DNA of 37,691 nt, taken from positions 134-37,824 of the forward strand of contig PLSB01000046.1 in assembly GCA_003165005.1 (NCBI GenBank), in the 5' to 3' direction. The notes below the pieces were generated by a model. That model did no database searches, was not told the origin of the DNA, and worked only from the letters and a program-made list of their open reading frames with translations. Source of the DNA: Acidobacteriaceae bacterium. Lineage in GTDB: Bacteria > Acidobacteriota > Terriglobia > Terriglobales > Acidobacteriaceae. Position 1 is the first letter of the stretch, and every line of letters begins with the position of its first letter. The position numbers and the translations under genes were made by a program. Shown here in pieces: positions 10,587-31,190 of this stretch.

Positions 10587-11567
10587 CTATCTCTCGGCCT
10601 CGCGCAGCGCCTCCAGCAATTTGCGATCCTCGGCGCTTAACGCCGCGCGCTCCAGCAGATCCGGCCGGTTTTTGAGCGTCTTCTTCAGTTGCTGCTCGCG
10701 CCGCCAGCGCCGGATCCCGGCATGGTCGCCGTTCAAGAGCACCTCCGGCGCGCGCAACCCGCCAAATTCGGCCGGCCGCGTGTAATGCGGATAGTCGAGC
10801 AGCCCTCCCGCTCCATGCTGCGAGCGCGGAACCCCCTCGACGTCCACATCGATCTCCGCGTCGGCCGCGCCAAAACTCTCGAACTCGCCCGAAGCCTCAT
10901 TGCCCAGCACGCCCGGAACCAGCCGCATGGTCGCGTCGACCACCACCGCCGCCGCCGGCTCGCCGCCGCTCAGCACATAATCCCCAATCGACAGCTCCAT
11001 GTCGCAGTAGAGCTCGTTGATGCGCTCATCGACGCCTTCGTACCGCCCGCAGATGAGCACCACGCGCTCCAGCCCGGCAAGCTCCCGCGCCACGGCCTGC
11101 GTAAACACCCGCCCCTGTGCCGAGAGTAGGATCACGCGTGTCCCGGCTGCGTCTCGCTTATCCGCTGACTCGCAGGCTTCCTCGCTCGCCAGGGGTGCCC
11201 CATCCTTGGCGCAGCTTTTTGCGCCAAGGGTGGGATCGCTGCTGACTTGATCACTCGCCGAATCGCTGACTCGCCGAGTCGCTGACTCGCTGGCTTGCTG
11301 ACTTGCCGACCCGCTCGCCAAACGCTCCGCCTTCGTTCCGATCTCGAGCTTCTCGAGCGCTTCGGCCAGCGGCTCCGGCTTCAGCACCATGCCTTCTCCG
11401 CCGCCAAACGGCCGGTCGTCCACCGTGCGATGGCGGTCGTGCGTAAACTCGCGCAGATCGTGCAGCCGGATCTCAACCAGCCCTTCAGCCTGCGCACGGC
11501 GCACAATGCCCTGCGCAAACACGCTTTCAAAATAGCCGGGGAAGAGAGTCACGATATCGAAGCGCAT
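10587..11567 (-). CDS. trmD: tRNA (guanine-N1)-methyltransferase with a repeat-derived internal insertion
   Basis: MRFDIVTLFPGYFESVF...HRTVDDRPFGGGEGMVLKPEPL...LICGRYEGVDERI...SIGDYVLSGGEPAA...VPGVLGNEASGEFESF...LLDYPHYTRPAEFGGLRAPEVLLNGDHAGIRRWRREQQL. Confidence 0.95.
   Translation of the reverse strand: MRFDIVTLFPGYFESVFAQGIVRRAQAEGLVEIRLHDLREFTHDRHRTVDDRPFGGGEGMVLKPEPLAEALEKLEIGTKAERLASGSASQQASESATRRVSDSASDQVSSDPTLGAKSCAKDGAPLASEEACESADKRDAAGTRVILLSAQGRVFTQAVARELAGLERVVLICGRYEGVDERINELYCDMELSIGDYVLSGGEPAAAVVVDATMRLVPGVLGNEASGEFESFGAADAEIDVDVEGVPRSQHGAGGLLDYPHYTRPAEFGGLRAPEVLLNGDHAGIRRWRREQQLKKTLKNRPDLLERAALSAEDRKLLEALREAER
11195..11237. repeat. Palindromic element family A, intragenic copy (inside trmD)
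   Basis: gtgccccatCCTTGGCGCAgcttttTGCGCCAAGGgtgggatc; same outer sequence and architecture as 31015-31056 and 31150-31190. Confidence 0.85.
11238..11319. repeat. Degenerate short-period array built on (G)CTGACTCGC inside trmD
   Basis: gctgctgacttgatcactcgccgaatcgctgactcgccgagtcgctgactcgctggcttgctgacttgccgacccgctcgcc. Confidence 0.75.
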
Positions 11568-11633
11568 ACTCTCTGATCATAGAAGCGCGCGCTTGATCTG
11601 CCATCTCGACTCGCCGTTTTCTTTTTCCCTTGG

Positions 11634-11697
11634 TCCCTGCCTTCTTGATCCCTTGGTCCCTTGGTCCCTTGTTCCCTCGGTCCCTTGGTCCCTGCCT
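11634..11697. repeat. Degenerate CCCTTGGTCC(CTT) array adjacent to a stop codon
   Basis: cttggtccctgccttcttgatcccttggtcccttggtcccttgttccctcggtcccttggtccctgcc, ending just before the gene stop at 11700. Confidence 0.8.
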
Positions 11698-23297: not shown

Positions 23298-24052
23298 TGA
23301 TTCACGCAGTGGTGGCAGACGATGAAGTCCTGGCAAGGCAGAAGTTGCGCCAATTGCTTCGCGACGACCGCGACATTGAGATCGTAGGCGAGTCGGCAAC
23401 TGCCCTGGAGACGATCGAACTGGTGAAAGCAACGAGCCCGGAGTTGCTGTTCCTCGACATTCGCATGCCGGGTATGGATGGATTCGATGTCGTCGATGCG
23501 TTGGCCAATCACGCGGATGTTTCGTTGCCGCGCATCATTTTCACCACGGCCTACGACCAATATGCCCTGCGCGCCTTCGAGGTCAATGCCGTCGACTATT
23601 TGTTGAAGCCCTTTACGCAAGAGAGACTGCGCACTGCCATCGAACGGGTTCGCGAGCAGTCTCAGGCGAAGCCGCAGGGAACCGGCGCTGCGAACGGGAA
23701 AAGCCAGGGCGTCAATTTTTACACCAACCGCATCATCTTCAAGTCGCGTGGCCGCATTCTGTTTCTGCCCGTATCGGACATTCGCTGGATTGGCGCCGAG
23801 GGCAATTATGTGCGCCTTTCCACGGCAATGGAGACTCACCTTTTGCGGGAAACCATGGCTCACCTTGCGGAGCGGCTCGATCCGCGAGGATTCCTCCGCG
23901 TGCATCGCTCGTTCATTGTGAACCTGAAGTATGTGAAGGAGGTGCGCCGGGAAAGCAACGGTGACTCCGTCGTGATCATGGATAGCGGCCAGAAGGTTGC
24001 ATTGGGCCGCAGCTATCGCTCGTCACTTACCGAGCAGCTCCATCGCGCGTGA
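23297..24052 (+). CDS. LytTR-type DNA-binding response regulator
   Basis: VADDEVLARQKLRQLL...LLFLDIRMPGMDGFDVVDAL...DYLLKPF...RILFLPVSDIRWIGAEGNYVRLST...FLRVHRSFIVNLKYVKEVRRES; TGATG overlap with the kinase gene. Confidence 0.94.
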   Translation: MIHAVVADDEVLARQKLRQLLRDDRDIEIVGESATALETIELVKATSPELLFLDIRMPGMDGFDVVDALANHADVSLPRIIFTTAYDQYALRAFEVNAVDYLLKPFTQERLRTAIERVREQSQAKPQGTGAANGKSQGVNFYTNRIIFKSRGRILFLPVSDIRWIGAEGNYVRLSTAMETHLLRETMAHLAERLDPRGFLRVHRSFIVNLKYVKEVRRESNGDSVVIMDSGQKVALGRSYRSSLTEQLHRA

Positions 24053-24065
24053 AAATCACGCGGCC

Positions 24066-24232
24066 TTACGCTCCCGCCGCGTTCAAATCCACCAACCCCT
24101 CCGGCAGCGCCATTTCCACGCGCTTGCCTTCAAGGTCCATCCGGCGCAGGTAGCTCTTCGCAAACGGGATCAGCAGCTCGCCGCTTGCGCCGCGCACCAC
24201 GAGAATCGGCACCGGTCCGGCCGTCCGGTCTA
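24066..24232 (-). pseudogene. Truncated 3' fragment of rimM
   Basis: VDRTAGPVPILVVRGASGELLIPFAKSYLRRMDLEGKRVEMALPEGLVDLNAAGA is near-identical to the C-terminus of the full rimM at 26573-27241. The DNA aligns ungapped at a constant offset of 2507 bp. Confidence 0.88.
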
Positions 24233-24390
24233 CTCTCCGTTCGATTTGGTCCACGAGAGGCATGCGCGTGTGGATGCATGTCGCGTTCGAAGCCGGGCTG
24301 CTCGCGTCGCAGGGTTGAAACAAAGCGCATTAGGCTGCTCCCCGCTATCAAATACACTGATGTGAACCACCAGAATGCTGGAGTAGCAGC

Positions 24391-26339: not shown

Positions 26340-26557
26340 TCGCCTCTCGCGCCCCGCAAACAGGCCCTGGCGCATTCACAGCATCCTTCTGTCCCGGTGC
26401 TTCCTCCACACCCGTCACAGCATCTGCGCCCACGGCCTCAATTCGGCAATCGCTTCCGCCACGTTCGCCGGATTTGGTCCGCCCACTGCGATCCGAAGTT
26501 CCTTTGGCGCAAGGCCCGGCTCTTGAGAATGCAAACTCACCACGGCATGAGGCGCAT
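26340..26557 (-). pseudogene. trpF-like (phosphoribosylanthranilate isomerase) C-terminal relic with a frameshift
   Basis: Reverse strand reads ...HSQEPGLAPKELRIAVGGPNPANVAEAIAELRPW (26430-26483), then, after a one-nucleotide shift, ADAVTGVEEAPGQKDA (26380-26427). This matches the TrpF pattern GGLNPENV..AI...RP[FW].VD..SGVE..PGKKD. Confidence 0.55.
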
Positions 26558-26572
26558 GAAAATCACGCACCC

Positions 26573-27241
26573 TCACGCTCCCGGCGCGTTCAAATCCACT
26601 AACCCCTCGGGTAGCGCCATTTCTACGCGCCTGCCTTCGAGGTCGAGCTTGCGCAGGTAGCTCTTGGCGAACGGGATCAGCACCTCGCCGCTTGCGCCGC
26701 GCACCACGAGAAGCGGTACGGGGCCGGCCGTCCGGTCCACGTCCTCAATCTCGCCGACATTCACCGTTGCCGCACCCGCCACGTCCACCAGCACGCACCC
26801 GATCAGGTCGCCGATGTAGGTTTCATCGGCGGCAAGCGGAGCTCGATCGGCTTGCGGAATGGCCACCACCAGCCCCTTCAGCTCTTCCGCTGCGCTGATC
26901 GAGTCCACGCCCGCGAAGTGCAGCACGATACCGCCTTTGTGCAGCCAGTGGTTGGCCAGGTCCATGGGACGAACCTGAGGAGGAACGGGCATGGTCTCCC
27001 GGGTCCCCAAGTGCGAGGGACCCGGGGCACCCACACCCACACCCACACTCACACTCACACTCACACTCGCACCCGCACTCGACGGGGCTCCCGCGCCGTC
27101 AGGCTTGAGCACCCACAAACGCTTACGTTCAGTAAATTTTTCAGGGAAATCGGTGAGAAGCTCGGCGAGAACCTCGCCTTTGCGGCCTTGCGGACGGCGA
27201 ATCCGCGCCAGCCAAACCCATGTTTCCGGCTGTACCGGCAC
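26573..27241 (-). CDS. rimM: 16S rRNA processing protein RimM with a repeat-derived internal insertion
   Basis: WVWLARIRRPQGRKGEVLAELLTDFPEKFTERKRLWVLKPDG [insert] ...HKGGIVLHFAGVDSISAAEELKGLVVAIP...YIGDLIGCVLVD...GEIEDVDRTAGPVPLLVVRGASGEVLIPFAKSYLRKLDLEGRRVEMALPEGLVDL; located next to khpA and rpsP. Confidence 0.93.
   Translation of the reverse strand: MPVQPETWVWLARIRRPQGRKGEVLAELLTDFPEKFTERKRLWVLKPDGAGAPSSAGASVSVSVSVGVGVGAPGPSHLGTRETMPVPPQVRPMDLANHWLHKGGIVLHFAGVDSISAAEELKGLVVAIPQADRAPLAADETYIGDLIGCVLVDVAGAATVNVGEIEDVDRTAGPVPLLVVRGASGEVLIPFAKSYLRKLDLEGRRVEMALPEGLVDLNAPGA
26996..27031. repeat. Palindromic element family B, intragenic copy (inside rimM)
   Basis: tcCCCGGGTCCC-caagtgcga-GGGACCCGGGgcaccc-type palindrome; same core (GGTCCCCAAGTGCGAGGGACC) as the reverse complement of 31090-31126. 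Confidence 0.85.
27028..27081. repeat. Hexanucleotide (CACACT/CACACC-type) array inside rimM
   Basis: cacccacacccacacccacactcacactcacactcacactcgcacccgcactcg; encodes SVSVSVSVGVGVG on the minus strand. Confidence 0.9.
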
Positions 27242-31014: not shown

Positions 31015-31056
31015 GTGCCCCATCCTTTCCGCGTTTTTTGCGGAAAGGGTGGGATC
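31015..31056. repeat. Palindromic element family A, intergenic copy 1
   Basis: gtgccccatccTTTCCGCgttttttGCGGAAAgggtgggatc. Confidence 0.9.
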
Positions 31057-31089: not shown

Positions 31090-31126
31090 TGCCCAGGTCC
31101 CTCGCACTTGGGGACCTGGGAGAGCA
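31090..31126. repeat. Palindromic element family B, intergenic copy
   Basis: tgCCCAGGTCCCtcgcacttgGGGACCTGGGagagca; matches the rimM copy in reverse orientation. Confidence 0.88.
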
Positions 31127-31149: not shown

Positions 31150-31190
31150 GTGCCCCATCCTTTCCGCGCTCGTTGCGGAAAGGGTGGGAT
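31150..31190. repeat. Palindromic element family A, intergenic copy 2
   Basis: gtgccccatccTTTCCGCgctcgttGCGGAAAgggtgggat. Confidence 0.9.

Follow-up and report, generated by a model that had tools for sequence, protein, structure and literature searches.

Short palindromes that are dispersed in bacterial genomes and can lie in frame within genes have been described in several settings. In REP/RAYT systems (REPtrons; PMC2817692, PMC3686654, PMC6006769), a short, high-copy and mostly intergenic palindrome carries a 5' tag, inverted copies of it flank the gene of a REP-associated tyrosine transposase (RAYT), and the tag is constant while the arms vary between transposases. The classical tag is GT[A/G]G (PMC3686654), and REPs lying in frame in genes, likely in loops of the products, are already reported in passages of PMC3733652 and PMC6006769. 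The Rickettsia palindromic elements (RPEs), of about 105-150 bp, are palindromes found in frame within conserved protein genes of rickettsiae, including those of RNA-modification enzymes (PMC10969869, PMC2229807), and two of them, RPE-4 and RPE-6, are CGTC-tagged according to a passage of PMC3733652. In the passages concerned, the same paper also deals with GTAG- and CGTC-tagged repeats and with the TIR-associated tyrosine transposases of Acidobacteria, and describes intragenic REPs in many species. Koribacter, Terriglobus, Acidobacterium and Granulicella are named there as hosts of TIR-flanked Y1 transposases; what these passages give for such genes is inverted repeats, not a GTGC-tagged REP family, and they report no acidobacterial gene insertions.

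An element related to these systems, hereafter F1, was analysed starting from a window of 37,691 nucleotides (the whole stretch of DNA under study) that belongs to a 3.9-Mb draft genome of an uncultured Acidobacteriaceae bacterium from soil (G000; 75%-complete, 327 contigs). With a probability of roughly 80%, F1 is a REP-like selfish palindrome, linked to a RAYT and tolerated in frame in surface loops of proteins, including that of TrmD, a tRNA-modifying enzyme that is normally essential. Two features define the trmD locus:

10587..11567, minus strand: trmD, encoding tRNA (guanine37-N1)-methyltransferase with an in-frame insert; ORF of 326 aa, recognised by NF000648 (283 bits) and TIGR00088 and by alignment.
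11154..11318, minus strand: additional ~165 bp (55 aa) of the TrmD loop between PLAEALEKL and RVILLSAQG, from the alignment, with borders accurate to about 10 bp on either side.

The frame is complete in the ORF listing of the window, the NCBIfam score lies well over the cut-off, and the protein is collinear with 11 relatives save for the stretch between these two motifs. The intact ORF and the alignment thus agree with the in-frame insert proposed at this place by the initial annotation; its size, then put at ~60 aa, comes down to a net ~55 aa. On solved structures, the insert maps between residues ~78 and ~85 of E. coli TrmD (1p9p), and directly precedes the strand leading into the SPQG motif (LSAQG in the window TrmD). 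An AlphaFold model made from a 12-sequence alignment has a mean pLDDT of 64, and values below 50 in the insert (residues 87-140); this model, of only fair quality as a whole and used as no more than a hint, points to a disordered region. Since the insert would form a disordered external loop, the enlarged TrmD is presumably still active.

The insert is composite: apart from the palindrome, it is made of an 8-bp tandem repeat. Its two ingredients, F1 and this satellite, are listed here with the other F1 copies of the window:

11195..11235, plus strand: F1 palindrome, reading GTGC, CCCATCCTTGGCGCA, loop, TGCGCCAAGGGTGGG and A, antisense to trmD; 41 bp, hairpin at 11199-11234.
11195..11198, plus strand: GTGC tag, on the 5' side of the hairpin foot, where classical REPs have their GT[A/G]G guide; also the tag in most palindromes beside RAYTs.
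11241..11315, no strand assigned: 8-bp satellite within the trmD insert, 9.4 tandem units of GCTGACTC (TRF).
11153..11190, no strand assigned: degenerate units of the 8-bp repeat GCTGACTC on the opposite side of F1 (repeat family D8).
31015..31054, plus strand: intergenic F1 copy (pattern match).
31150..31189, plus strand: intergenic F1 copy (pattern match), with a stem identical to that of the 31015..31054 copy.

The initial annotation had recognised the palindrome and pointed to both intergenic copies, which were recovered; it had located the core of the trmD copy correctly, but extended it to 11237, and had missed the 8-bp satellite as well as the other palindrome families that occupy the TrmD loop of relatives. 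A second octamer satellite (unit TCCCTTGG, ~8.6 units) is present near the intragenic one, at 11621-11693 of the window, directly upstream of the trmD start.

F1 consists of the 5' GTGC tag followed by a hairpin whose outer arms, CCCATCC...GGGTGGG, are constant and whose inner stem varies. This inner stem covaries: within one copy, its arms pair over a mean of 7.4 bp, versus 3.7 bp for arms taken from different copies, and several compensating pair types occur per position. The trmD copy lacks the right-hand GCACG foot and sits within the satellite, and hence may have come within a larger piece. Unlike the palindromes of REP/RAYT systems, some F1 copies lie in the middle of larger palindromes, of which there are at least four, with outer arms that differ and are unrelated (TATTGATCCGGC, GGTCTCTGACCGC, GCATTTTCACT and TAGAGCGGAACCA; L066, L072, L086, L104 and others). 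The possibility that F1 had inserted into an older GATCCGGC...GCCGGATC palindrome was rejected, as no F1-free copy of the latter was found and the sole match has an unrelated inner sequence. Two further repeats of the window were noted, namely a 35-nt inverted pair with CCCAGGTCCC...GGGACCTGGG (26992-27026 and 31092-31126), which resembles the CCCAGGTCTC-type palindromes flanking other RAYTs of the genus, and two 189-nt direct copies, 88% identical and 2.5 kb apart (24045-24233 and 26552-26740).

The dispersal suspected from the window is evident genome-wide, with 149 strict F1 matches as against none for a reversed-pattern control, and 179 matches to a looser pattern in the same draft. Of 89 sampled copies, 77 are intergenic, 11 lie inside called genes and one overlaps a gene edge, in DNA with a coding share of 79%, these figures being approximate since the gene calls come from a home-made caller. 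Within its class, F1 is nearly confined to Acidobacteriaceae: in a tally of the rows for 300 genomes, it is present in 53 of 74 members of this family versus 14 of 226 others, the latter with at most four copies each. The closed genome G080 carries 53 copies of the same element family. In the draft G022, F1 also occurs as tandem arrays of around ten copies in a row with ~90-bp spacing (L354-L363 on contig C49, and contigs C171 and C230). Joining the flanks of F1 copies revealed no within-genome empty sites in the sampled stretches of G000.

Linkage to a RAYT is demonstrated in the window genome itself. Among its eight Y1 transposase matches, one (L122:1360-1881, minus strand) stands between inverted F1 copies, the first lying 5 bp past the stop codon and the other upstream of the start, with the nearest upstream copy partly masked by N. 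None of the seven other Y1 transposases (L121 and L123-L128), which serve as a control, is flanked by F1. The L122 product belongs to the REP-associated tyrosine transposases according to NCBIfam (NF047646, REP_Tyr_transpos, 117 bits for a cut-off of 80). Homologues of this RAYT at 67-100% identity have inverted F1-type palindromes on both sides in all seven cases, usually ~60 bp upstream and near the stop codon. At 49-57% identity, the flanks are mostly palindromes with other arms (CCCAGGTCTC, CCCATTC or CCCACCC), and GTGC is retained just outside the hairpin; over the palindromes beside RAYT genes, each GTGC base is present in 46-49 of 56. The median F1 copy number is 78.5 in genomes with a close RAYT versus 18.5 in those without (p=0.0016, six genomes versus 54, relatedness being ignored), and the stem adjoining the RAYT of G083 is the commonest F1 stem of that genome. 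A point against this link is that no close RAYT was found in several drafts with many F1 copies (G003, G010 and G022). Near three of the other Y1 transposases of G000 (L123, L124 and L128), GGGCTTTAGCCC- or AGTCGTGCC-type sequences were observed, which are kinds also seen in the TrmD loops of related species.

TrmD is not the only protein concerned. Seven of the 89 sampled copies interrupt conserved enzymes in frame, five of them antisense and two sense: TrmD, QueA, UbiD, MoeA, the family-3 glycosidase NagZ/GH3, a nucleotidyltransferase (NTP transferase) and the methylpurine-DNA glycosylase MPG. The remaining four of the 11 intragenic copies lie near protein ends and may correspond to start-site or tail effects. 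In G022, F1 interrupts conserved domains of AnmK, HemD and GlyS and is found between domains in RlmN; in G083, it lies in the CysG linker, with one of 30 copies being intragenic. Gene insertion by F1 is real but uneven between species, and it is not universal, since none of the 53 copies of G080 is located in a gene. QueA, MoeA and GlyS carry F1 without period-8 satellites, showing that F1 is able to enter genes alone. No stop occurs in any of the six frames in 84% of the 89 F1 copies; the share is 37% for their dinucleotide shuffles and 15% for other intergenic stretches. In addition, the first base is read at codon position 3 in nine of the 11 intragenic copies; because the copies are related by descent, these figures are not independent evidence of selection, and both could result from shared ancestry or from flank stops, so that they are leads only. 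We consider a broader proposal unlikely, in which GTGC would mark a third superfamily of tagged REPs in Acidobacteriaceae, next to those tagged GTAG and CGTC; it would have RAYT clades of its own, and its members would have been shaped to be readable in any frame and thus to live inside essential genes.

Comparison between species provides an insert-free allele, which the initial annotation had proposed to look for in a sister strain: the TrmD loop is 72 aa long in the window genome versus 17 aa in the sister species G024. It is mostly 16-20 aa long in other Acidobacteriaceae and mostly short outside the genus (15-20 aa), and many members of the genus have some added sequence in it. In a TrmD tree built without the loop region, G000 is sister to G024 with support 97/81, and G020, which has another F1 copy in TrmD, is sister to the insert-free G005 with support 98/93. 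A third F1 copy is found in TrmD of G029, and the loops of other genus members contain GGGCTTTAGCCC-type palindromes or octamer tracts. Genomes whose TrmD includes GGGCTTTAGCCC or a near variant of it have 18-115 copies of GGGCTTTAGCCC. QueA provides a parallel case: about a dozen relatives lack the ~75-bp insert of G000. Another QueA site is occupied in G014 by an F1-like element of opposite orientation, and in G010 by a GTGCCCCAGATC-type palindrome. These data support separate gains in TrmD, with several palindrome families occupying the same loop. Because the empty sites are between-species comparisons, the junctions are blurred and inexact to the base.

A scenario for F1 can be proposed on the model of classical REPs. 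The RAYT, an enzyme of the HUH/Y1 type, probably copies or moves F1 in trans via single-stranded DNA, as proposed for those elements, and would do so by recognising the GTGC tag. The majority of copies would settle between genes, while those landing in a gene would survive where the frame is kept, no stop is introduced and the site is a surface loop. The trmD insert would be one such F1 copy accompanied by an 8-bp satellite, in the loop ahead of the LSAQG (SPQG) strand.

Other histories of the trmD insert have to be weighed against this one. The insert could have grown mainly by slippage of the 8-bp satellite, the palindrome having come along with intergenic DNA by recombination and not by transposition. 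We consider this unlikely. In its favour, the satellite does flank F1 in trmD, and the TrmD loop of G013 has an octamer tract without F1; of 11 period-8 arrays in the sampled DNA of the genome, all but the one in trmD lie outside called genes, and such arrays are also found beside other F1 copies. The satellite-free copies in QueA, MoeA and GlyS nonetheless argue for entry of the palindrome by itself. It is much harder to envisage a loop insert inherited from the ancestor of the genus and lost on many occasions, with the palindromes as relics and not as repeated arrivals. The added loop sequence of many genus members would agree with such an ancestry, but an insert-free sister exists for both G000 and G020, the inserts are from unrelated palindrome families, and short loops prevail outside the genus.

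A role of F1 as a host regulatory RNA structure (terminator, attenuator or mRNA stabiliser), functional in trmD, is likewise improbable. Both the covarying stem and a slight scarcity of F1 in divergent intergenic regions (10 of 70) could be read in this way; however, the two strands are used in nearly equal numbers relative to the flanking genes, F1 has no T tract, the window yields no Rfam match at gathering thresholds, and the element is found within the coding region of seven enzymes in either orientation. Finally, an assembly or binning artefact, which might be feared in an incomplete, fragmented metagenome-derived draft, is scarcely credible given that the frame stays open with homology on either side, that similar inserts exist in the independent genomes G020, G029, G014 and G022, and that the F1 family is present in the closed genome G080.

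The reading of F1 as a RAYT-linked, REP-like palindrome is also the one that best situates it among known systems. Palindromes in frame in core genes are best known from the reduced, intracellular Rickettsia, and are found here in larger, free-living soil bacteria. With a candidate transposase, insert-free sister alleles and recurrent hits on the TrmD and QueA loops, the questions raised by RPEs (what moves them, why proteins tolerate them and whether such insertions can come to serve a purpose) can be tested on a defined enzyme and a defined substrate. Our data further suggest that REP searches restricted to GT[A/G]G tags miss a group of REPs. A description of F1 was not found in the open-licence literature; what appears to be new is the GTGC tag, the existence of such a family, together with its transposase, in acidobacteria, and the fact that the same TrmD and QueA loops have been hit repeatedly by palindromes of several families.

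F1 agrees with classical REPs in its copy number and intergenic location, in the inverted copies flanking a cognate RAYT, and in a tag that is kept while arms differ between transposases, but this tag is GTGC instead of GT[A/G]G. Its intragenic copies recall the intragenic REPs of PMC3733652. With RPEs, F1 shares in-frame insertion in several unrelated conserved genes, and the RPE-like character proposed by the initial annotation holds in this respect, as judged from the insert-free sister, the separate gains, the six other enzymes and the many intergenic copies. It does not extend to anatomy: published descriptions set RPEs apart as longer, rickettsial elements, whereas F1 is ~41 bp long (the whole insert in QueA measures ~75 bp), acidobacterial and RAYT-linked, and has no CGTC tag. 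Its length of 41 bp, its GTGC tag, its near-confinement to Acidobacteriaceae and its tie to a RAYT make REP/RAYT systems its closer kin, and F1 is thus a GTGC-tagged, RAYT-linked REP-like element that is RPE-like inside genes without being an RPE.
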